Positions 30,917 to 60,831 of a stretch of 64,000 nucleotides of DNA are shown piece after piece. Location of the stretch: contig NZ_CP048222.1 in assembly GCF_010119975.1 (NCBI RefSeq), positions 4,916,501-4,980,500 of the forward strand, in the 5' to 3' direction. Made by a program: the position numbers and the translations under genes. Under the pieces are notes generated by a model. It did no database searches and was not told where the DNA came from. It saw nothing but the letters and a program-made list of their open reading frames with translations. Numbering within the stretch: the first letter of the stretch is position 1; each line of letters begins with the position of its first letter. The stretch is from Rhodocytophaga rosea (GTDB taxonomy: Bacteria; Bacteroidota; Bacteroidia; Cytophagales; 172606-1).

Positions 30917-33049
30917 ATGGAACTTGAAAAATTCAGTTACGACAATAAAATAGTAAAGTATTTTGCTATTGCCACCGTTGTCTGGGGTGTTGTCGGTATG
31001 AGTGTAGGATTGCTTGCCGCTTTACAAATGGTGTTTCCTATTCTCAATTTTGATCTGCAATATACCTCTTTTGGGCGTATTCGCCCTTTGCATACGAATG
31101 CTGTGATCTTCGCTTTTGTAGGCAATGGTATTTTTGCAGGGGTTTATTATTCTTTGCAGCGTTTGCTGAAAGCAAGAATGTTCAGCGATACGCTAAGCTG
31201 GATTAACTTCTGGGGATGGCAACTCATTATTTTATCAGCAGCCATCACTTTACCACTCGGCTATACGACCTCAAAAGAATACGCCGAACTGGAATGGCCA
31301 ATTGACATTGCCATTACCTTAATCTGGGTAGTATTTGGATGGAACATGCTCGGAACGATTATCAAGCGCCGGGAGAAACACATGTATGTGGCCATCTGGT
31401 TTTATATCGCCACTCTGGTTACTGTAGCCGTGCTGCACATAGTAAACTCTTTCGAGCTGCCACTGCATGGATTAAAAAGCTATTCTTTCTATGCCGGTGT
31501 TCAGGATGCTCTGGTGCAATGGTGGTATGGTCATAATGCAGTCGCGTTCTTCCTGACTACGCCTTACTTAGGGTTGATGTATTACTTCCTTCCTAAAGCG
31601 GCTAATCGCCCGGTATATTCTTATAAATTATCTATTGTACACTTCTGGGCGCTCATTTTTATCTATATCTGGGCTGGTCCGCACCACTTATTGTATACTT
31701 CCCTGCCAGACTGGGCACAGGCCATGGGAACTGCGTTCTCAATTATGTTACTTGCCCCTTCCTGGGGTGGTATGATAAATGGGTTACTTACTTTGAGAGG
31801 CGCATGGGATAGGGTACGTGAAGAACCAGTATTGAAATTTATGGTAGTGGCCATTACAGCCTATGGGATGGCCGTGTTTGAAGGTCCGATGCTTTCGCTG
31901 AAAAATGTAAATGCCATTGGCCACTTTACCGACTGGATTGTAGCTCACGTACACGTGGGTGCCCTGGGATGGAATGGCTTTCTGACTTTCGGTATGCTCT
32001 ACTGGTTAATCCCTCAAATGTGGAAAACCTCTCTGTATTCTAAAAAATTAGCCAACCTACACTTCTGGCTGGGAACCCTGGGTATCTTATTCTATGCACT
32101 TCCTTTATACTGGGCAGGTATTACTCAGAGTTTGATGTGGAAAGAGTTTACACCTGAAGGGTTTTTGAAATACCCCAACTTCCTGGAAACAGTTCAGCAG
32201 ATTCTCCCCATGTATATGACCCGTGCTGTGGGTGGCATGTTATACCTGAGTGGGGTGTTCGTAATGGTGTATAACTTATTTAAAACTGCTGCACAAGGAA
32301 CATTCGTTGCCAACGAAGCTGCTGAAGCACCAGCCTTGGCCAAAGAAACCAGCGAACACAAAGAATACTGGCACAGAGTACTCGAGAAAAAACCAGTGGT
32401 ATTCACTGTATTGGCTACGGTTGCCATATTGATCGGTGGTATTTTCGAACTGATTCCTACATTCCTGATCAAATCTAATGTGCCTACCATTTCAGCAGTG
32501 AAACCTTATACACCCCTTGAATTGCACGGAAGGGATCTTTATATCAAAGAAGGTTGTGTAAACTGCCACTCTCAAATGGTGCGGCCATTCCGCTCCGAAA
32601 CTGAACGCTACGGCGAGTATTCCAAAGCTGGCGAGTTTGTATACGACCATCCATTTCTGTGGGGCTCTAAACGTACCGGTCCGGATTTGCAGCGCTTAGG
32701 TCAGAAGTATCCCGATAGCTGGCACTACCACCACATGCTCGATCCAAGCTCGATGTCTCCAGGTTCTATTATGCCGCCTTATCCCTGGTTACTTGAACAG
32801 TCTTACGATAAATCTTTAACACCAGATATGATTACGGTTATGAGAAAATTAGGTGTGCCCTATGAAGATGGATATGAAAAGCAGGCCAACGCCGATGTAG
32901 AAAAGCAAGCCGACCAGATTGTTCAGCGCCTGAAAGATGCTGGTATCGCTACCAAATCTGATAAGGAAATCGTAGCCCTGATCGCTTACCTGCAACGCCT
33001 GGGTACTGATATCAAAGTGAAAAAAGAAATGATTGTAACGACAGAATAG
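30917..33049 (+). CDS. ccoNO: cbb3-type cytochrome c oxidase, fused subunits I and II
   Basis: The protein has 710 residues. Residues ~1-480 are CcoN, a twelve-helix haem-copper oxidase subunit with ligand-region histidines visible in RPLHTNAVIF, WWYGHNAVAFFLT, GPHHLLYTSLPDW and IVAHVHVGALGWNG. Residues ~500-710 are CcoO, anchored by one helix and carrying a mono-haem cytochrome c (C547-V-N-C550-H551, then SQMVRPFRSE). Fusion of the two is common in Bacteroidota. It is the catalytic part of a high-affinity terminal oxidase and first gene of the operon. Confidence 0.93.
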   Translation: MELEKFSYDNKIVKYFAIATVVWGVVGMSVGLLAALQMVFPILNFDLQYTSFGRIRPLHTNAVIFAFVGNGIFAGVYYSLQRLLKARMFSDTLSWINFWGWQLIILSAAITLPLGYTTSKEYAELEWPIDIAITLIWVVFGWNMLGTIIKRREKHMYVAIWFYIATLVTVAVLHIVNSFELPLHGLKSYSFYAGVQDALVQWWYGHNAVAFFLTTPYLGLMYYFLPKAANRPVYSYKLSIVHFWALIFIYIWAGPHHLLYTSLPDWAQAMGTAFSIMLLAPSWGGMINGLLTLRGAWDRVREEPVLKFMVVAITAYGMAVFEGPMLSLKNVNAIGHFTDWIVAHVHVGALGWNGFLTFGMLYWLIPQMWKTSLYSKKLANLHFWLGTLGILFYALPLYWAGITQSLMWKEFTPEGFLKYPNFLETVQQILPMYMTRAVGGMLYLSGVFVMVYNLFKTAAQGTFVANEAAEAPALAKETSEHKEYWHRVLEKKPVVFTVLATVAILIGGIFELIPTFLIKSNVPTISAVKPYTPLELHGRDLYIKEGCVNCHSQMVRPFRSETERYGEYSKAGEFVYDHPFLWGSKRTGPDLQRLGQKYPDSWHYHHMLDPSSMSPGSIMPPYPWLLEQSYDKSLTPDMITVMRKLGVPYEDGYEKQANADVEKQADQIVQRLKDAGIATKSDKEIVALIAYLQRLGTDIKVKKEMIVTTE

Positions 33050-33102
33050 GTGAATGAGCAATTGAGTAATTAATAGTTAAGTAAAAATTCATACTCATTC
33101 AC
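33050..33102 (+). repeat. Intercistronic inverted repeat, ccoNO-ccoQ gap
   Basis: A 9-bp perfect inverted repeat (33050-33058 with 33094-33102) encloses AT-rich DNA in the 103-bp gap. No T-tract follows, so it is not an obvious terminator; it may tune mRNA stability or differential expression. Confidence 0.4.
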
Positions 33103-33152
33103 TCCATCTCGCAATCACCCAGTCACACAAATAACCAACAACGATTACGAAC

Positions 33153-33341
33153 ATGTTTAAATATTATTTTGAGCGCATCCAGGATATTGAAATTTTTCCG
33201 GTGATATCCCTGCTCATATTCGTCCTCTTCTTCATTGCGTTACTCATCTGGGTAATGAAAGCCGACAAGCAGTACATCCGGTCTATGGAGCACCTGCCGC
33301 TGGAAGAAGAAAAACCTGGTAAAGAAAATTCTATCAATTAA
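33153..33341 (+). CDS. CcoQ-like small cbb3 oxidase subunit
   Basis: 62 residues with one membrane helix (VISLLIFVLFFIALLIWVM) and a charged C-terminal tail. Size, topology and position between ccoNO and ccoP match CcoQ, which stabilises the complex. It is followed 5 bp later by ccoP. The sequence itself is too short to be decisive. Confidence 0.7.
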   Translation: MFKYYFERIQDIEIFPVISLLIFVLFFIALLIWVMKADKQYIRSMEHLPLEEEKPGKENSIN

Positions 33342-33346
33342 AAGCC

Positions 33347-34261
33347 ATGAACGCATTCCGCATTTCAACATTCAAAAAGAAAGCTTTGGCAGGTTTAATC
33401 CTGATGTTCTTCTTGAGCCAGGGACTTTCTGCCCAAGGACAATATGCTGCTGATACACAAACCATACAACTGTATGTAGTGGCTGTCATGCTCATATTTG
33501 TGTGTGTTGCTGTATTGATTACAGCCATTTACACTTTGCAGGTCATGCAGTTTCTCCTGGTGAAAGATTCGCCGGAAACCGCTATAGTTCAGGAAAGTTT
33601 ATGGAGCCGTATCTACAAACGCTATATTGCAGGTGATATGACTCCTGTTGACCCAGAGAAGGAAAAAGCGATTGCCCTCAGTCACAGCTACGATGGCATA
33701 GTGGAATTGGATAACTACATGCCGCCCTGGTTGAAATACATTTTTTATGGTACCATCGCTTTTGCCATTATTTACCTGGTTAACTTCTTTTCTCTGGGCC
33801 TGGTACAAACCAGCGAACAGGAATATATGGCGGAAGTGCAACAAGCTGAGATACAAATAGCTGAATACCGCAAAGCAAACGCAGCCGCTATTGATGAAAA
33901 TACGGCTAAAGTGGTAAAAGAAGAAGCATTACTGGCTCAGGCAAAATCTATTTATGAACAAAACTGTAAAGCTTGTCATGGGGGCGCTGGTGAAGGTGGC
34001 GTAGGCCCGAACCTGACAGATGAGTACTGGATTCATGGCGGAGATGTAAAAGGAGTGTTCAAGACCATTAAATATGGCATACCACAGAAAGGGATGATCG
34101 CCTGGCAACAAAAACTGAAGCCAGATGAAATTCAAAGTGTAGCCAGCTATATTCTTTCTCTGCAAGGAACAAATCCAGCCAATGCCAAAGAACCACAAGG
34201 GGAGAAATTAACAAGTGCAACTAATACATCTGGACCTGCAACTCTTTCTGTAACTGATTAA
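33347..34261 (+). CDS. ccoP: cbb3 oxidase subunit III, cytochrome c
   Basis: The protein has 304 residues. It has a hydrophobic N-terminus (LAGLILMFFLSQGLSAQ), a membrane helix near residue 45, and the CcoP N-terminal domain with SHSYDGIVELDNYMPPWLKY and a further helix. The C-terminal cytochrome c domain has C207-K-A-C210-H211, GVGPNLTDEYWIHGG and a distal methionine candidate in GMIAWQ. Only one haem motif is present, whereas proteobacterial CcoP is usually di-haem; mono-haem forms occur in Bacteroidota. It passes electrons from soluble cytochromes to the catalytic subunit. Confidence 0.88.
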   Translation: MNAFRISTFKKKALAGLILMFFLSQGLSAQGQYAADTQTIQLYVVAVMLIFVCVAVLITAIYTLQVMQFLLVKDSPETAIVQESLWSRIYKRYIAGDMTPVDPEKEKAIALSHSYDGIVELDNYMPPWLKYIFYGTIAFAIIYLVNFFSLGLVQTSEQEYMAEVQQAEIQIAEYRKANAAAIDENTAKVVKEEALLAQAKSIYEQNCKACHGGAGEGGVGPNLTDEYWIHGGDVKGVFKTIKYGIPQKGMIAWQQKLKPDEIQSVASYILSLQGTNPANAKEPQGEKLTSATNTSGPATLSVTD

Positions 34262-34405
34262 TTAGTCAGAATTAAGATTCTTGGGATAATTAAGATTTCA
34301 GGATGATGGGTTAAGTAAGCTTAACCATTTCAATAAGAAACTACAGTAAAATCCTGCAATCTTTTAATAAAATAAATCCTAATTCTGGACCGATAAAATA
34401 CCGCT
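34262..34405 (+). repeat. Large multi-tier hairpin in the ccoP-ccoG gap
   Basis: Nested inverted repeats fill the gap. Outer arms 34267-34279 / 34375-34387 are 13 bp with one mismatch; middle arms 34292-34304 / 34351-34363 are 13 bp with one mismatch; the inner arms 34309-34315 / 34320-34326 are 7 bp perfect with a 4-nt loop. The word ATTAAGATT occurs twice in the left half. There is no long T-run, so a structural or attenuating role is more likely than simple termination. Confidence 0.6.
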
Positions 34406-35962
34406 ATGCAAGCCTTCGCTGAACAAGAAAACAAAGAAACCTTCCGGAATCATCTTTCTACGGTAGATGAAACCGGAAAACGGGTATGGGTATATCCTAA
34501 AAAGCCTAAAGGCAATTGGCATCAGGCACGGGTAATAGTAGCCATTATTCTGCTTACCTGCTTGTTTGGAATTCCTTTTATCCAGGTGGATGGCTTGCCT
34601 TTCTTTCTGTGCAATATTTTCGAACGCAAATTTGTACTGTTTGGCTATCCGTTTTTTCCGCAGGATTTTTACCTGTTCGGATTGGCTATGATCACCTTTT
34701 TTGTATTTATAATTCTGTTTACGGTGGTATTTGGCAGAGTATGGTGTGGTTGGGCTTGTCCGCAAACCATTTTTATGGAAATGGTTTTCCGCAAAATTGA
34801 ATACTGGATTGAAGGCGATGCCAACCAGCAGAAAATACTCGATAAAGCTCCGTGGACAGCGGATAAACTATTTAAGAAATCTGCTAAACACCTGATCTTC
34901 CTGCTGATTTCTGTATTGATTGCCCATACTCTGATGGCGTATATAATTGGTTTGGAAGAGGTTAAATTAATTGTAACTCAGTCTCCGGCAGAGAACCCGG
35001 CAGGATTTGTTGGCCTGGTGGCTTTTACCGGAATATTTTACCTGGTATTTGCCCGCTTACGTGAACAAGCCTGTACGGTGGTTTGTCCATATGGCAGGTT
35101 ACAAGGGGTGTTGTTAACCAGAGAGAGTATTGTAGTAGCCTATGATTTTGTACGGGGCGAACCAAGAGGAAAAAAGAAAAAAGCCGGTAAAGAAGTAAAA
35201 CAGATTCCTACGGAAGATGTACATGCAGATTGCAGCGGAAAATGTACTGGTTGTACTTTACAGCATACTGCTGTTGAGAAAATAGGTACACTGGCAGATA
35301 TTGCCTCTGTAACAGAAAGACCTATGCAGTTACAGGACTTAATGAAGCAAGGTGATTGTATTGATTGTAAACTTTGCGTACAGGTTTGTCCGACAGGTAT
35401 AGATATTCGCAATGGTACCCAACTGGAATGCATCAACTGTACGGCTTGTATGGATGCCTGCGATGAAGTGATGGAGAAAATAGGAAAACCTAAAGGACTG
35501 ATCCGTTTTGATTCACACAAAGGCATTACTGATAAGGTAAAGCTGAAATTCACTCCCAGAATAGCTGCCTATGCCGCCGTATTGATGCTGTTAATTGGGT
35601 TGCAGGGTTTTATGATCACTACCAGAAGCCAGATGGAAGCAACTTTTCTGAGGGTTCCTGGAATGTTATATCAGGAGCAAGCAGAAAACAAGATCAGCAA
35701 CCTGTATAATGTGCAGCTGGTAAATAAAACCAATCATGCTATGCCGGTTACACTGAAATTACTGGGTGATCATTTAGGAGACATAAAAGTAGTGGGCAAA
35801 CAGATTATGATTCCCGAAAGTGCATCTGCGGAGGTAGTTTGCTTTATAGAACTGCCCAAAAGTGAAATTCATTCTGTTAAAACAACGCTGGAAATAGGAA
35901 TTTACTCGAATGGCACTTTATTGAAGCGAATCAAAACCAGCTTTGTCGGGCCTGTTCAATAA
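34406..35962 (+). CDS. ccoG: CcoG/RdxA/FixG cupric reductase, oxidase assembly, with Cys-rich insertion
   Basis: The protein has 518 residues. It has five to six membrane helices, the WCGWACPQTIFMEMVF block, EQACTVVCPYGRLQG, two [4Fe-4S] motifs (CIDCKLCVQVCPTG and CINCTACMDACDE) and a C-terminal Ig-like periplasmic domain. CcoG reduces copper for cbb3 oxidase maturation. Between GEPRG (~255) and GDCIDC (~316) is an insertion of about 60 residues containing C276-x3-C280-x2-C283, not expected in the family members I know. The product is therefore longer than the usual ~460-480. Confidence 0.9.
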   Translation: MQAFAEQENKETFRNHLSTVDETGKRVWVYPKKPKGNWHQARVIVAIILLTCLFGIPFIQVDGLPFFLCNIFERKFVLFGYPFFPQDFYLFGLAMITFFVFIILFTVVFGRVWCGWACPQTIFMEMVFRKIEYWIEGDANQQKILDKAPWTADKLFKKSAKHLIFLLISVLIAHTLMAYIIGLEEVKLIVTQSPAENPAGFVGLVAFTGIFYLVFARLREQACTVVCPYGRLQGVLLTRESIVVAYDFVRGEPRGKKKKAGKEVKQIPTEDVHADCSGKCTGCTLQHTAVEKIGTLADIASVTERPMQLQDLMKQGDCIDCKLCVQVCPTGIDIRNGTQLECINCTACMDACDEVMEKIGKPKGLIRFDSHKGITDKVKLKFTPRIAAYAAVLMLLIGLQGFMITTRSQMEATFLRVPGMLYQEQAENKISNLYNVQLVNKTNHAMPVTLKLLGDHLGDIKVVGKQIMIPESASAEVVCFIELPKSEIHSVKTTLEIGIYSNGTLLKRIKTSFVGPVQ

Positions 35963-35971
35963 TACAAAACT

Positions 35972-36199
35972 ATGAAAAGTAATATAGGCGAAACAGACAG
36001 AATAGTAAGAGTCTTTCTAGGCTTAACAATCATTGGTATAGGCTTGTCTGTGCAGAACTGGTTAGGGTTGATTGGGATGATTTCACTGGCAACTGCCTTG
36101 ATCGGTAAATGCCCTTTGTATGTGCCATTTGGCATTTCAACAATTGAATCAAGAGATACTTCTGGCGGTGCCGCACTGCCAGGTCAAAGAAAATCATAA
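35972..36199 (+). CDS. DUF2892 (YgaP-like) small membrane protein
   Basis: 75 residues. It starts MKSNIGETDRIVRVFLGL and contains two hydrophobic helices ending in ALIGKCPLYVPFGIST, the signature of DUF2892 inner-membrane proteins (the membrane part of YgaP). The conserved cysteine lies in KCPLY. It begins 9 bp after ccoG and so belongs to the cbb3 operon, an unusual place for it. Its role here is unknown. Confidence 0.8.
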   Translation: MKSNIGETDRIVRVFLGLTIIGIGLSVQNWLGLIGMISLATALIGKCPLYVPFGISTIESRDTSGGAALPGQRKS

Positions 36200-36216
36200 T
36201 GCGAAAAGTGTATATT

Positions 36217-36249
36217 ATGGAGGCTGCTGCCATTGGTAGCAGTTTCCAT
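36217..36249 (+). repeat. Hairpin in the DUF2892-fixH gap
   Basis: A 12-bp stem with two G-T pairs (36217-36228 with 36238-36249) and a 9-nt loop. No U-tract follows. It is one of four inverted-repeat structures in gaps of this operon. Confidence 0.5.
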
Positions 36250-36296
36250 CCCAAGTTTAAATTTAAATAATAGTCAATAATTAAAACAGTAATAAA

Positions 36297-36737
36297 ATGA
36301 GCTGGGGAACGAAAATAGCATTTATCTACGGAGGCTTTGTTGCTTTTATAATAGGGATGGTAACGCTATGTATCAAACAAGATGATATTCATCTGGTAAG
36401 TAAAGAATACTATAAAGAAGAGATTGCCTACCAGGAACAGATTAATAAACTTACTAATACCCAACAGTTACAGGGGCAAATGGGCTTTCAATATGAAGGA
36501 AGCAAACAGATGGTAGAATTCTTTTTTCCTAAATCTTTGCTGGATACCAAGGGTGAGATCCTGTTTTTCCGTCCGTCTGATGCCAGGAAGGATGTGAAAA
36601 TAGATATTCAAATGGATGAAAACGGACGTCAGGTAGTACCAGTTGCCAACCTGGACAAAGGATTATGGAAAGTAAAAGTGAAGTGGTCGTCAAATGACAA
36701 AGAATATTTCAGTGAAGAGACATTAATTATTCAATAG
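36297..36737 (+). CDS. fixH: FixH family protein
   Basis: The protein has 146 residues. An N-terminal membrane helix (IAFIYGGFVAFIIGMVTLC) is followed by LVSKEYYKEEIAYQEQINK, the conserved FixH segment, then a beta-rich domain outside the membrane. FixH is needed for copper insertion and assembly of cbb3 oxidase, usually with the copper ATPase FixI/CcoI, which is not in this window. It sits between the DUF2892 gene and the SafE-like gene. Confidence 0.85.
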   Translation: MSWGTKIAFIYGGFVAFIIGMVTLCIKQDDIHLVSKEYYKEEIAYQEQINKLTNTQQLQGQMGFQYEGSKQMVEFFFPKSLLDTKGEILFFRPSDARKDVKIDIQMDENGRQVVPVANLDKGLWKVKVKWSSNDKEYFSEETLIIQ

Positions 36738-36810
36738 CCGACAGGCTACAGCTTATGGTCTACAAAATTTTAGAGTAGATTTTTCACTGTGAGCTGTAGT
36801 CTGTCAGCTA
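36735..36810 (+). repeat. Long imperfect hairpin in the fixH-safE gap
   Basis: 19-bp arms (36735-36753 and 36792-36810) with one mismatch and one G-T pair; an inner 5-bp repeat lies within the loop. The left arm starts inside the fixH stop codon region. It nearly fills the 91-bp gap. Confidence 0.55.
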
Positions 36811-36828
36811 AAAATTTATACATACACT

Positions 36829-37539
36829 ATGTTGTATTCTGCTTTTGTTATTGGATTATTAGGGAGCCTGCATTGCCTGGGTATGTGTGGACCACTCGTA
36901 CTGGCTTTACCAGTGCCAGCAGCTAGCCAATTGCAAGCCTTTTCAGGTAGATTAATATATAATATGGGGCGTATTCTCACTTATGCGTTTATTGGACTTA
37001 TTCTCGGTATTTTCGGAGAAAGCCTTACTTTTTTTACTTCCCAGCAAAAACTTTCGGTGGTGATCGGGTCAGTAATGTTGCTGTTGATTGTATTACCTAC
37101 CTATGTTTCCCGGCAAATGAATGGCCTGAGTCCACTCACCAGACTTACTGGAAAAATCAAGCAGCAATTTGCTTTACAGTTCTGCAAACGTACCTATAGC
37201 GCCTATTTTCTCAGCGGTATGCTCAATGGCTTGCTGCCCTGCGGACTGGTGTACATGGCACTAGCCGGAGCAATAGCCACAGGGAATAGCTTTTCTGGCA
37301 TGTTCTTTATGGCTTTATTTGGACTAGGAACTTTACCTATGATGCTGGCAGTATCTGTAGCCGGACAATATATTACCCTGCAATGGCGTAGTAAGCTTAC
37401 CCGAATCGTTCCTGTTTTCACCATTTTTATTGCTTGCCTGTTTATTCTCCGGGGGTTAAATCTGGGTATTCCACTCGTAAGCCCGGCCATCGCCCAAACC
37501 AAAGCAACTATTCATGTGACGTGCTGCCACAAAAAGTAG
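36829..37539 (+). CDS. SafE/TauE-family membrane protein (CcoH-like)
   Basis: The protein has 236 residues and about six helices. GLLGSLHCLGMCGPLVLALP near the N-terminus and LSGMLNGLLPCGLVYMALAG at mid-protein are the conserved cysteine/histidine blocks of the UreH/SafE-type family associated with cbb3 oxidase assembly in Bacteroidota. It ends with a CCHKK tail that could bind a metal. It is probably involved in copper or other metal handling for the oxidase; direct function is inferred from context. Last gene of the operon. Confidence 0.8.
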   Translation: MLYSAFVIGLLGSLHCLGMCGPLVLALPVPAASQLQAFSGRLIYNMGRILTYAFIGLILGIFGESLTFFTSQQKLSVVIGSVMLLLIVLPTYVSRQMNGLSPLTRLTGKIKQQFALQFCKRTYSAYFLSGMLNGLLPCGLVYMALAGAIATGNSFSGMFFMALFGLGTLPMMLAVSVAGQYITLQWRSKLTRIVPVFTIFIACLFILRGLNLGIPLVSPAIAQTKATIHVTCCHKK

Positions 37540-45833: not shown

Positions 45834-45842
45834 CCAATGTTT

Positions 45843-45920
45843 ACAGAATTACAGAAGGATAGAATAAATTCTGTAATTCTGTAATTCTGTAATTCTGTAA
45901 TTCTGTAATTCTGTAATTCT
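45843..45920 (+). repeat. 8-bp tandem repeat array with inverted copies
   Basis: Six perfect copies of AATTCTGT plus a partial seventh run from 45867 to 45920, ending 2 bp before the start codon of the alkyltransferase-like gene. Just upstream, 45843-45856 holds the reverse complement of nearly two units, so the array can fold into hairpins in several registers. Copy number changes would alter the leader of the next gene. Confidence 0.9.
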
Positions 45921-45922
45921 TT

Positions 45923-46255
45923 ATGGCTTTAGATAAGAATTTCTTCCAGGATGTATATGAAGTAGTCAAGTTGGTTCCGGAGGGCAGAGTGACTACCTAT
46001 GGCGCTATAGCTCAATATTTAGGCTTAAAAAGTTCTGCCCGGATGGTAGGCTGGGCTATGAACCAGGCACATGTCGTTAGCGGAGTTCCGGCACACCGGG
46101 TAGTAAACAGAAATGGACTGCTCACGGGCAAACATCATTTTGAAACACCCCAGGCGATGCAACTACGGTTGGAGCAGGAAGGAATTATTATTGTGAATGA
46201 CAAAGTACAGAACTTTGATACATTAGTCTGGTATCCGGTAAAGGAATTGTTGTAA
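45923..46255 (+). CDS. Alkyltransferase-like protein (ATL), cysteine replaced
   Basis: 110 residues, the MGMT C-terminal domain only. VYEVVKLVPEGRVTTYGAIA and SARMVGWAMNQAH form the DNA-binding helix-turn-helix region. The canonical PCHRV active site reads PAHRV, with alanine at residue 57, so it cannot accept alkyl groups. ATL proteins bind O6-alkylguanine and hand lesions to nucleotide excision repair. Its start codon directly follows the 8-bp repeat array. It ends 11 bp from the convergent MFS gene. Confidence 0.88.
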   Translation: MALDKNFFQDVYEVVKLVPEGRVTTYGAIAQYLGLKSSARMVGWAMNQAHVVSGVPAHRVVNRNGLLTGKHHFETPQAMQLRLEQEGIIIVNDKVQNFDTLVWYPVKELL

Positions 46256-58329: not shown

Positions 58330-58683
58330 ATACCAATAATCTTACAACCCTTCTTCAAAATTATTGCTACGATAATATTATGTAATATTTTCACTTTGGC
58401 TGAAAATATTACATAATATTATCTTTCGGTTCAGGCTAATTAAAAGTGCTCAAATAAATATGGGTGCTTTTATGGAAAATCAAACCATTATACTTTATTT
58501 GCATAAAACAAGATAATTACCCAGGTAGAATACAAATTTTTATATTACATTCCAGGGATGTATGGTATTTGTTTAATGTGTGAAATATAAGTTCTGGCAG
58601 AAAAATAGCACATGTAATAAAAATTGTATTTACATTTTATTATCTCCTGGTATACACGTAAACAAATAATTATCACACGTAGT
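58330..58683. other. Divergent intergenic region
   Basis: 350 bp of very AT-rich DNA separating the HNH gene and the 109-aa gene. Apart from the 23-bp inverted repeat at 58371-58423 nothing is recognised, and no clear -33/-7 pair is seen. Confidence 0.45.
58371..58423. repeat. 23-bp perfect inverted repeat with 7-nt loop
   Basis: Arms 58371-58393 and 58401-58423 are perfectly complementary and almost all A/T. No T-run follows on either side, so it is not a standard terminator. It could be an operator, a cruciform, or a fold in the leader of the HNH mRNA. Confidence 0.9.
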
Positions 58684-59013: not shown

Positions 59014-59040
59014 AAGCAAAAGTTTTAAATTAGTTATACA

Positions 59041-59092
59041 GATTTAAATAAAAAGCCGGTTTCTATTGAGAAACCGGCTTTTTATTTAAATC
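59041..59092. terminator. Bidirectional terminator with 24-bp perfect stem
   Basis: Arms 59041-59064 and 59069-59092 pair perfectly around a 4-nt loop, with a GC-rich centre and T-runs on both sides. It separates the convergent 109-aa gene and the susD-like gene. Confidence 0.92.
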
Positions 59093-59114
59093 TAATAAGT
59101 TTGCAGCTAGCAAA

Positions 59115-60677
59115 TTACTGTTGTGGATACCCTGGATTTTGTGGTTTCAGGTTAGCATTATTCTGCATTTCTGGTCTTGGAATAGGGAACAGGAGATGTT
59201 TTTCCTGTAAAGCTTGGTTTGAACCTATGTTCACATGGCCTACAAAGTTATCGAATCCCTGCGTAGTCTCATTGTATACCTTCCGGAGACGTACCATGTC
59301 AAACCAGGTAATGAATTCGTAACAGAACTCATGCCAGCGCTCTCTCCATATGGCTTCCCGGAATGAGTTCTGATCATAAGTACCTAATTCTGGTGTTGTC
59401 AGCTGTGCTCTGTCTCTAATCCGTTTGAATGCATCGTATGCCTCCTGGGTAGGTCCGCCCAGCTCATTTTGCGCTTCTGCATACATTAACAGCACTTCTG
59501 CATAACGGATCAATGGCACATTGAGGTTGTTATTACGGGTACCAGCTACACCAGAGGTGCCATTTGCAGTTACATTAAAGTGCTTAAAAATATAAGGTGC
59601 TCCTAAATCAAAGGGATCTCCATTACCATTGCGGAAATAGCTGGTATAAAAGTAGCCTTCTCTGTCTTTTGCCCGCAAGTCGCCAGCTTCGTAAGAATTA
59701 TAAAATGATCTGGTTGGCACCGTACTTCCGGTACCAGCATTCCCGGCAAAAGTAACAGGCTTAAAATTAGGATGCATGTCCTGCATAGGATTACCTGCCA
59801 CCAGTATATTATATTGAAGCATAAAAATATGCTCTACTGTATTCTTCTTAGCCTCCAGATGCACATCGCCGTAAGTAGGGAAAAGATTAATTGTACCCGG
59901 ATTAGCATTGGCATAGGTTATTACTTCCGCTGCTTTATCTGCTGCTAATTTGTAATGAGATGCCCCTTTGTTGAGAGGTTGTCCTGCCATAGTCAGGTAG
60001 ACTTTAGCCAACAGAGATTTTACAGCGGCTTGTGAAACCCGTCCATTAGAATTCATCCATGCTAAACCAGCGGCCTCAGCGGCTACCAGGTCATCTACAA
60101 TGAGTTGATATATTTCTTCCTGCGAATTACGGGAAGGCAGGAAATCTGGAGATTCTATCGTTTGAGGTTTTGTAATTAAAGGTGCATCACCCCAAAGCCT
60201 GACCACGTAAAAATAGGCCCAGGCACGGAGAAATTGTGCTTCACCAATGATACGGGCTTTTTGGGCATCGTTCATGGGCGTAATACCAGGAACTCTATCA
60301 ATAACTATATTGGCATTGGCAATAACTCTGTATAAACCATTCCACCAGTTAATGATATGCTGGGTATTGCCATCATACGAAAGAGAATACAAGTTGTTTA
60401 GATCTGAATTCTGGGCTGTTTCTGTAGTAGAAGTTCCGGTGGGCGCTTCCAGCATTTGCCAGGTTACCGAAAAAATTCCGGCACCGTTCCCTATAAACCG
60501 GGTATCTGCATATACAGCCGCAATAGCTGCCTCGGCCTGGTCGGGTATGGTATAAAAGTTATCCGGGGTTAGGTTAGAGGGAGGTGTTTCCTCCAGAAAA
60601 TCATTACAGGCTGTGCCCAGCAACATGGCTCCGCAAAGAAAGACGTTGCCAGCAATTTTGACTATATTAAACTTCAT
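59115..60677 (-). CDS. RagB/SusD-family outer-membrane nutrient-binding lipoprotein
   Basis: The protein has 520 residues. The signal ends with a lipobox-like MLLGTAC, then CNDFLEETPPSNLTPDNFYT, a typical SusD start. TPR-like helices and the C-terminal RagB/SusD part follow, with IRYAEVLLMYAEAQNELGG, RERWHEFCYEFITWFDMVRL and LFPIPRPEMQNN. It caps the SusC channel and binds the substrate at the cell surface. No glycoside hydrolase lies beside it in the window, so the substrate is unknown. Confidence 0.93.
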   Translation of the reverse strand: MKFNIVKIAGNVFLCGAMLLGTACNDFLEETPPSNLTPDNFYTIPDQAEAAIAAVYADTRFIGNGAGIFSVTWQMLEAPTGTSTTETAQNSDLNNLYSLSYDGNTQHIINWWNGLYRVIANANIVIDRVPGITPMNDAQKARIIGEAQFLRAWAYFYVVRLWGDAPLITKPQTIESPDFLPSRNSQEEIYQLIVDDLVAAEAAGLAWMNSNGRVSQAAVKSLLAKVYLTMAGQPLNKGASHYKLAADKAAEVITYANANPGTINLFPTYGDVHLEAKKNTVEHIFMLQYNILVAGNPMQDMHPNFKPVTFAGNAGTGSTVPTRSFYNSYEAGDLRAKDREGYFYTSYFRNGNGDPFDLGAPYIFKHFNVTANGTSGVAGTRNNNLNVPLIRYAEVLLMYAEAQNELGGPTQEAYDAFKRIRDRAQLTTPELGTYDQNSFREAIWRERWHEFCYEFITWFDMVRLRKVYNETTQGFDNFVGHVNIGSNQALQEKHLLFPIPRPEMQNNANLKPQNPGYPQQ

Positions 60678-60722
60678 AAGAAATGTCTGTTATAATGATA
60701 TAGATTTGAATAAGCAGATAGT

Positions 60723-60812
60723 AAGACCTTAAACAAGAGATATAAGAAATACAGGAATCTGTTCTGCCATCTTCTCATTTCTACTACACGTATATCTCTT
60801 ATTTTGTGTCTT
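60723..60812 (-). repeat. Hairpin between susC-like and susD-like genes
   Basis: 22-bp arms (60723-60744 and 60791-60812) match at 18 positions, including a 10-bp perfect inner block, around a 46-nt loop in the 154-bp intercistronic gap. It could lower SusD expression or protect the susC 3' end. Confidence 0.55.
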
Positions 60813-60831
60813 ATATCTTTGGATAAATTAG

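Follow-up and report, generated by a model that had tools for sequence, protein, structure and literature searches.

In operons with selective RNA processing and stabilization (SRPS), stem-loops stand 3′ of selected cistrons of a protein-complex operon, processing sites and transcript ratios have been measured and, in the available text of these reports, 2 of 33 such stems are followed by a run of U (PMC4423207, PMC8219983). The SRPS feature of an intergenic stem-loop 3′ of a cistron inside an operon is also present in the cbb3 operon of Rhodocytophaga rosea, which lies in the 64,000-nucleotide stretch analysed here (contig NZ_CP048222.1, positions 4,916,501 to 4,980,500; hereafter the window). 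Like the SRPS stem-loops, these hairpins follow selected cistrons of an operon for a complex, and they are known here from DNA sequence alone. Unlike the cellulosome stem-loops, which the same reports call orthologous among species as far as their available text goes (PMC4423207, PMC8219983), the cbb3 hairpins keep their place while their sequence is replaced. In the accessible part of the work on differential decay in Escherichia coli, the structures lie generally within coding regions and are often conserved (PMC5927463), whereas the cbb3 hairpins are intergenic and their sequence is not conserved between genera.

The hairpins also resemble repetitive extragenic palindromes (REP) and bacterial interspersed mosaic elements (BIME), described in the available text as dispersed intergenic palindromes, often taken as RNA hairpins, with paired inverted copies (PMC3733652). 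REPs, however, are given there as 20-40 bp long with an unpaired GTAG or CGTC tag (PMC3733652), whereas the arms seen here are often runs of 7- or 8-mers parted by a loop. Neither tag occurs within 10 nt of the four stems of the window; among 74 long-loop elements, 10 carry a tag no more than 8 nt away, compared with a mean of 5.9 and a maximum of 12 in shuffles. REPs also occur in many copies scattered over a genome, which was found here for the tested words only. The heptamer repeats (TAACTGA) of Beggiatoaceae, Cyanobacteria and some Bacteroidetes are likewise 7-nt intergenic words with a patchy distribution between species; in the accessible text they differ in being direct (169 sets and one indirect in the genome studied) and in lying mostly just upstream of start codons (PMC4679880). 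The BrickBuilt miniature inverted-repeat transposable element (MITE) of Porphyromonas gingivalis is also a Bacteroidota element with tandem repeats and inverted ends, but it has a 23-nt unit in a direct array with a leader and a tail, and a word-built stem is not among the features described in the available portion of that paper (PMC4596501). Among the literature matches listed, no description of word-built hairpins in Bacteroidota was found, subscription papers being outside the search scope.

Hairpins at the junctions of the cbb3 operon

The R. rosea operon has the order ccoNO, ccoQ-like open reading frame (ORF), ccoP, ccoG, DUF2892 gene, fixH and a DsbD_2-family gene (Pfam), and spacing and strand suggest that these genes form one transcript. 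Two of its junctions, ccoNO–ccoQ and ccoP–ccoG, hold hairpins across many genera, well above control gaps and with no sequence conservation between genera. This pattern suggests that the hairpin, not its sequence, is what matters, and a function of the hairpins at the mRNA level is plausible. The explanation that we consider best, at just short of an even chance, is that these are U-less intercistronic hairpins, replaceable in sequence at the two junctions, that act like the stem-loops of SRPS. The original prediction had centred on inverted repeats in this one operon; as judged from sequence comparison, the pattern is broader, with recurrent positions, interchangeable sequence and a partial origin in dispersed word repeats.

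The comparison covered 80 named cbb3 loci from GTDB genomes and further loci of relatives, with genes located by tblastn. In each gap of 45-400 nt the best inverted repeat was compared with 100 shuffles and called significant at p ≤ 0.05. Operon gaps were taken from tblastn and control gaps from long-ORF calls, and for relatives the start codon chosen was the one closest to the extrapolated position. In the main set (the window, two relatives and the named loci), significant hairpins were found at 31 of 37 ccoNO–ccoQ and 30 of 37 ccoP–ccoG junctions, against 3/32 at ccoG–fixH, 2/30 at ccoQ–ccoP and 4/11 between fixH and the next gene. Controls from the same loci gave 97/306 for co-directional, 45/86 for convergent and 14/118 for divergent gaps, and 9/240 for coding pieces. 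Sixteen loci of other families added 8/8 at ccoNO–ccoQ and 10/11 at ccoP–ccoG; five of them had already been read by eye when the pattern was first noticed, and the 11 not seen beforehand gave 4/4 and 7/7, respectively. The totals were thus 39/45 (ccoNO–ccoQ), 40/48 (ccoP–ccoG), 7/38 (ccoG–fixH), 2/34 (ccoQ–ccoP) and 5/14 (fixH–next). A divergent ccoP N-terminus is the probable reason for the ccoQ–ccoP gaps, whose median length is 332 nt.

Fisher's test against control co-directional gaps gave 1.7e-12 for ccoNO–ccoQ and 1.8e-11 for ccoP–ccoG, over loci that are related and not independent. Because of this relatedness, counts were also made per genus or isolate label (genus labels were assigned by us, and each other-family genome without one was counted as one): hairpins were in the majority for 16 of 19 labels at ccoNO–ccoQ, 20 of 26 at ccoP–ccoG and 6 of 19 at ccoG–fixH, compared with 5 of 38 for controls. 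With Pontibacter left out, the two junctions still stood at 19/24 and 23/30. The contrast is not made by choosing gaps of at least 45 nt, because it is also seen over all adjacent pairs of the main set (ccoNO–ccoQ 31/80, ccoP–ccoG 30/77, ccoG–fixH 3/74, ccoQ–ccoP 2/79, control 97/580).

At ccoNO–ccoQ the median distance is 9 nt from stop to stem and 20 nt from stem to next start. A U-tract (at least 5 T in 8 nt on the 3′ side) accompanies 3 of the 39 significant hairpins there and is missing from 36 of 39, so that U-less hairpins occupy 36/45 of these gaps, compared with 5/38 at ccoG–fixH and 36/306 in control co-directional gaps. The ccoNO–ccoQ sequences of different genera show no resemblance by eye, and many junction hairpins in other families are compact and not word repeats. 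A word vocabulary common to genera was considered and was not supported in this sample: five element pairs of different labels share an 8-mer, with a shuffled mean of 9.0 (72 long-loop elements, 14 labels). The ccoNO–ccoQ gaps of two Hymenobacter loci (L166 and L168) contain long near-perfect stems built on GTCATGCTGAGC...GAAGCATCTCTAC; since a similar stem stands in a convergent gap of L166, this is probably another dispersed family.

If the hairpins act in this way, a stem that starts a few nucleotides past the stop codon and lacks a U-tract would let transcription pass, and the stems in the RNA would serve as barriers on the 3′ side, making the upstream cistron more stable, like those of SRPS and of E. 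coli differential decay. The hairpin 3′ of ccoP would separate the structural from the assembly genes, with mostly terminator-type hairpins at this place in Pontibacter. Part of the raw material is dispersed word hairpins, in which degenerate 7- or 8-mers in tandem stand opposite their reverse complement; such material is found in gap 1 of R. rosea and in Pontibacter.

The R. rosea genome is a single contig of 8.98 Mb, and its nearest named relative in searches was Rhodocytophaga aerolata (ccoNO 94% identical). Four of the six operon gaps are 91-144 nt long and all four contain inverted repeats; the remaining two gaps are 5 and 9 nt. The features of the operon and of one further site in the window are as follows.

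30917..33049, + strand: ccoNO, a single ORF (COX1 and FixO; PF00115 E 6.4e-121, PF02433 E 2e-100)
33050-33152: gap 1, ccoNO to ccoQ, 103 nt
33050..33102, + strand: hairpin 1, beginning at the first base past the ccoNO stop (9-pair arms, z -3.3)
33103..33152, + strand: leader ahead of ccoQ, in which antisense words of the GTGAWTGA octad carry on (antisense octad 21 of 24)
33153..33341, + strand: ccoQ-like small membrane protein, from position and conservation (tblastn 79% in R. aerolata; no Pfam match)
33347..34261, + strand: ccoP (PF14715, PF13442)
34262-34405: gap 2, ccoP to ccoG, 144 nt
34266..34388, + strand: hairpin 2, a three-part stem 3′ of ccoP (inverted repeat, folding against shuffles)
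34406..35962, + strand: ccoG (FixG; PF13746, PF11614)
35972..36199, + strand: DUF2892 / YgaP-like transmembrane gene (PF11127)
36200-36296: gap 3, DUF2892 gene to fixH, 97 nt
36217..36249, + strand: hairpin 3, compact, 15 pairs, 3-nt loop (folding against shuffles)
36297..36737, + strand: fixH (PF05751)
36738-36828: gap 4, fixH to DsbD_2-family gene, 91 nt
36735..36810, + strand: hairpin 4, 17/19 outer pairs, beginning at the fixH stop codon (z -7.0)
36829..37539, + strand: DsbD_2-family membrane protein (PF13386)
45841..45916, + strand: octad-word hairpin (TTACAGAA/TTCTGTAA) 5′ of the ATL gene, the same kind of element elsewhere in the window
45923-46255: ATL gene (PF01035)

Against 300 dinucleotide shuffles per gap on the sense strand, gaps 1 to 4 folded with z scores of -3.32, -2.49, -4.01 and -7.01, and 0, 3, 1 and 0 of the 300 shuffles folded as low. 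The best ungapped inverted repeat of each gap had p from 0.005 to 0.03 against shuffles. Gaps 3 and 4 held at z -4.0 and -7.2 when the fold took in 10 nt of each flanking gene. The original prediction had placed inverted repeats in all four sizeable gaps and proposed folding against shuffled controls as a check; both parts were borne out, all gaps of at least 90 nt folding better than their shuffles. It had also called the repeats mostly free of U-tracts, and indeed the four gaps contain no terminator-like site (a G+C-rich stem followed by a U-tract). Its repeat sizes were right for gap 1 (9/9 pairs, arms 33050-33058 / 33094-33102) and too small for gap 3, where it gave 12 bp and hairpin 3 has 15 pairs including 3 G-U (36217-36249). 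For gap 2 it gave 13+13+7, and the stems seen are an inner one of 7 pairs (34309-34315 / 34320-34326), a middle one of 12/13 (34292-34304 / 34351-34363) and an outer one of 9+4; for gap 4 it gave 19, and 17/19 positions pair (arms 36735-36753 / 36792-36810). No Rfam match within the window reached the gathering score.

Hairpins and word families beyond the operon

As a baseline, 864 kb of the R. rosea genome were sampled (the window and 40 stretches of 20 kb), with genes from a simple coding-score caller that misses small genes, including ccoQ and the DUF2892 gene. Inverted repeats scoring at least 30 numbered 80 in intergenic DNA against 3 in one shuffle, and 16 in coding DNA against 7 shuffled. 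Under the thresholds used above, co-directional gaps held a significant repeat in 65 of 276 cases, convergent gaps in 35 of 54 and divergent gaps in 4 of 60. Hairpins are thus frequent downstream of genes and at about chance level where genes diverge, and four of four gaps in one operon exceeds the 24% co-directional background, yet the operon is not unique. The original prediction had pointed to similar structures before the ATL gene and between susC and susD; the former gap is strong (45834-45922, p=0.005) and the latter weak (60627-60831, p=0.02). Two near-perfect inverted repeats of 23 and 25 bp were also noticed in the window, at 58371-58423 and 59040-59093, the second of which resembles a bidirectional terminator between a + strand gene call and a susD-type gene.

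The suggestion that the hairpins form a systematic mRNA-level device of this operon, setting subunit ratios, is supported in part. Hairpins recur at two of the four junctions without sequence conservation between genera, as a structure-only mRNA element would. The ccoG–fixH and fixH–next junctions are not regular hairpin sites (7/38 and 5/14), and hairpins 3 and 4 accordingly do not lie at regular hairpin junctions. Because hairpins of the same kind occur in many other gaps, including convergent ones, and some are dispersed repeats, they are not a device of this operon.

The sampled stems were divided by rules of our own into class T, with short loops and an A-run before or a T-run after the stem, and class R, without such a mark. 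Class T stems are ordinary terminators, often bidirectional. Many class R stems have loops of 10-70 nt, and among those with loops of at least 10 nt and arms of at least 16 nt, internal periodicity (p ≤ 0.05 against shuffled arms) was found in 26/53 5′ arms and 25/53 3′ arms, compared with 2/58 and 3/58 for class T. In a second run with lags 3 to 12, 25 arms passed, with a best lag of 7 in 19 and of 8 in 5; the best lags of shuffled arms were spread evenly over 3 to 12. Six of these 25 periodic arms are near-identical Pontibacter arms of one site, so the independent cases are fewer. Typical 5′ arms begin with GATGTTCGATGTTCGATGTCCGATG, TGAGATATGAGATGTGAGATATGAG or TAGATACTAGATTGTAGATGTTAG, and the 3′ arm is mostly the reverse complement. 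A G-rich 5′ arm masking a Rho site was also considered and dropped: 52 of 100 class R stems had G>C and 30 had G<C, and the counts at ccoNO–ccoQ were only 11 and 8.

One word family of R. rosea is TGAGTGAW. Its form TGAGTGAWTGAGTGAWTGAG has 92 genome matches with at most 2 mismatches, against 1 for the reversed control. Sixty-two positions were grouped into 48 clusters, and all 14 two-strand clusters run TGAGTGA then TCACTCA. The 20 places fetched comprise 14 co-directional, 3 convergent and 2 divergent gaps and one place inside a called gene; of the 19 classed, 11 have two arms, always in the same order, and 8 have one strand only. A longer version of the word was found in 6 of 59 genomes including R. 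rosea, with 38 and 40 matches in two genomes of the same order, where it is strongly represented, and has no match in R. aerolata. In gaps of this genome (L200, L211, L213; window 45841-45916), runs of GAATTAC heptads or of TTACAGAA/TTCTGTAA octads stand beside or replace TGAGTGA words. The GAATTACG arrays are direct repeats with no inverted partner visible in the gaps read. The genome has five PF01797 matches (Y1, IS200/RAYT-type transposase), at 8883265, 11174, 3020690, 2445066 and 11094.

Judged by its arm words, hairpin 1 belongs, in decayed form, to the GTGAWTGA octad family of this genome. Its arms score 20 and 21 of 24 for the octad, and of 500 shuffles 0 and 1, respectively, score as high, though the reversed octad gives 18 on the left arm and 16 on the right. 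The best match of its gap is to a hairpin in locus L081 (E 2.9e-5 over 63 nt), and there are 12 matches at E ≤ 0.5 against 1.15 for shuffles. For hairpins 2, 3 and 4, no relatives exceeding shuffles turned up in the 864 kb sample, and the word of gap 4 has 17 genome matches (at most 2 mismatches; 2 of the 17 are its own arms) against 3 for the reversed control. The original view that the four hairpins are not one repeat family thus holds for the set, with the correction that gap 1 belongs to a genome-wide word family.

In 12 pairs of orthologous gaps both Rhodocytophaga species have 45 nt or more; of these pairs, a hairpin is present in both species in 4, in R. rosea only in 3 and in neither in 5. 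The four shared places (ccoNO–ccoQ, ccoP–ccoG and two TGAGTGA sites; three co-directional and one convergent) have different arms in the two species. The places with a hairpin in R. rosea only are a third TGAGTGA site, another gap of locus L015 and fixH–next, whose 53-nt R. aerolata gap has no significant hairpin. Of the marks of a MITE (terminal inverted repeats, target-site duplication, an empty site in relatives), inverted repeats are present, whereas the R. aerolata gaps are mostly of similar length with another hairpin or none. Clean insertion into an empty site was looked for and not seen among the 12 pairs; the mostly similar gap lengths therefore point to overwriting instead. Hairpin 3 is similar to a hairpin that lies upstream of fixH in R. 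aerolata, with the ATGGAGGCT arm in both, and a tblastn search found no match to the DUF2892 gene between ccoG and fixH in the R. aerolata operon.

Replacement of the hairpin sequence in Pontibacter

The ccoNO–ccoQ gap is 87-152 nt long in 21 of 21 Pontibacter species, and 20 of the 21 have a significant hairpin, drawn from at least four word families. On the ccoNO tree, word family requires 11 changes, no fewer than the shuffled labels with their mean of 11.4, and with only the well-supported branches counted, each of the four larger word families still requires a minimum of 3 or 4 changes. The sisters P. fetidus and Pontibacter sp. Tf4 differ in word family, while distant species agree. The tree was built from ccoNO alone by a quick method, with a Shimodaira-Hasegawa-like approximate likelihood ratio test (SH-aLRT) support of at least 95 on 8 of 20 inner branches, and the word labels were assigned by eye. 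In the 34 of 210 pairs that could be aligned (identity at least 0.65, a filter that favours similar gaps), mean identity was 0.89 in arms, 0.72 in the loop, 0.73 in the tail and 0.57 at ccoNO fourfold sites; arms exceeded the loop in 32/34 pairs and fourfold sites in 34/34.

The ATCACGT word is dispersed in all six species that have it at the cbb3 site (own site counted), with matches against control of 57 vs 2 in P. amylolyticus, 25 vs 1 in P. anaerobius, and 20 vs 3, 16 vs 1, 12 vs 3 and 9 vs 2 in the other four. Of six species with another word at the site, three are at control level (1 vs 3, 1 vs 4, 3 vs 4), two slightly above it (7 vs 3, 5 vs 0) and one, 172403-2, clearly above (18 vs 2). 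The GACAMAA word exceeds its control in 10 of 12 genomes, with a weak excess in isolate 903 (20 vs 9); it does not exceed it in HSC-14F20 (14 vs 14) or FD36 (4 vs 8), although both have this word type at the cbb3 site. Twenty P. amylolyticus places were read (L176-L195, e.g. L177, L178, L180): 14 co-directional, 4 convergent and 1 divergent gap, and 1 perhaps in a gene. Both ATCACGT arms are present in 17 of them, and in 10 a GACAAAG-type stem is nested symmetrically inside the ATCACGT stem. One compound hairpin (L190) folds at about -175 kcal/mol in a gap of 345 nt.

At ccoP–ccoG, 15 of 17 significant Pontibacter hairpins (L119-L161) are U-tracted, with the stem usually 150-225 nt before ccoG. 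These stems are therefore probably terminators, and ccoG-fixH is probably a separate transcription unit in Pontibacter.

Weighing the explanations

The strongest rival to an SRPS-like function is that the hairpins are selfish or neutral dispersed repeats, non-autonomous and REP- or MITE-like, that settle harmlessly behind stop codons and are not used by the operon. This we consider rather unlikely. It agrees with the scattered and patchy word families (TGAGTGAW; ATCACGT and GACAMAA in Pontibacter), with the presence of elements in convergent gaps and with a word family at the cbb3 site that departs from the gene tree; it leaves unexplained why hairpins are so frequent at ccoNO–ccoQ and ccoP–ccoG and much less so at ccoG–fixH, why the gap is retained in 21/21 Pontibacter species, why compact stems without word repeats make up many of the junction hairpins in other families, and why arms are better conserved than loops. 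Possible, and held tentatively, is a wider scheme in which Bacteroidota carry a class of word hairpins that spread in genomes, vary by species and are adopted as interchangeable mRNA-stability modules, selection at fixed operon junctions retaining a hairpin of any family, so that one gap is refilled repeatedly. That the stems are terminators or attenuators, ending a fraction of transcripts so that read-through sets the downstream level, appears improbable to us. The U-tract found in only 3/39 ccoNO–ccoQ hairpins and the lack of terminator-like sites in the window's gaps speak against it, while the highest hairpin rate is in convergent gaps, where terminators are expected, and 23 of 40 significant ccoP–ccoG hairpins, 15 of them in Pontibacter with the distant stems described above, have at least 5 T in 8 nt at the 3′ side. 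From this U-rich tailing it follows that the boundary between structural and assembly genes is met by a terminator or by a U-less stem, depending on lineage. Still less probable, and in our view very unlikely, is a mutational by-product of arm-to-arm template switching (quasipalindrome correction) and slippage, with stems persisting without selection: arms of tandem 7- or 8-mers with their complement opposite and the second word family nested symmetrically in 10/20 P. amylolyticus places are as it would have them, but it explains neither the junction pattern within one operon nor the fact that other families have compact, non-repetitive stems there.

Several observations weigh against the SRPS-like function itself. 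CcoN, CcoO and CcoP are generally regarded as required in equal amounts, and a ratio-setting role between ccoNO and ccoQP is therefore not obvious. The presence of dispersed repeats in such gaps leaves room for a non-functional reading. The other-family loci also have hairpins at 4/6 ccoG–fixH junctions, and outside Pontibacter this junction stands at 6/24, near control, so that the junction contrast rests much on Pontibacter and Pedobacter. Only 17/48 ccoP–ccoG gaps have a U-less hairpin. Among main-set ccoNO–ccoQ pairs, 49/80 lack a significant hairpin, 43 of which have a gap of at most 42 nt, below the test range; where gaps are this short, for instance in Pedobacter, Fulvivirga and Marivirga, a long hairpin can be dispensed with. 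When 10 nt of the neighbouring genes are included at either end, hairpin 1 falls to z -1.87 (11/300 shuffles as low) and hairpin 2 to z -2.00 (13/300). Covariation across related gaps, which the original prediction had proposed as a check, is weak among the alignable Pontibacter pairs: double changes keep the pair in 18 cases and break it in 14, and single changes keep it in 46 and break it in 72.

If the SRPS-like function is real, the cbb3 hairpins would be a functional RNA element conserved in position and shape without conserved sequence, invisible to alignment-based covariation searches, and short-word repeats would be linked to a use in mRNA stability. Pontibacter may serve as a natural swap experiment, with one gap holding several different hairpins in related species. 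Bacteroidota would thereby gain a sequence-free way to separate gene stabilities within one operon.

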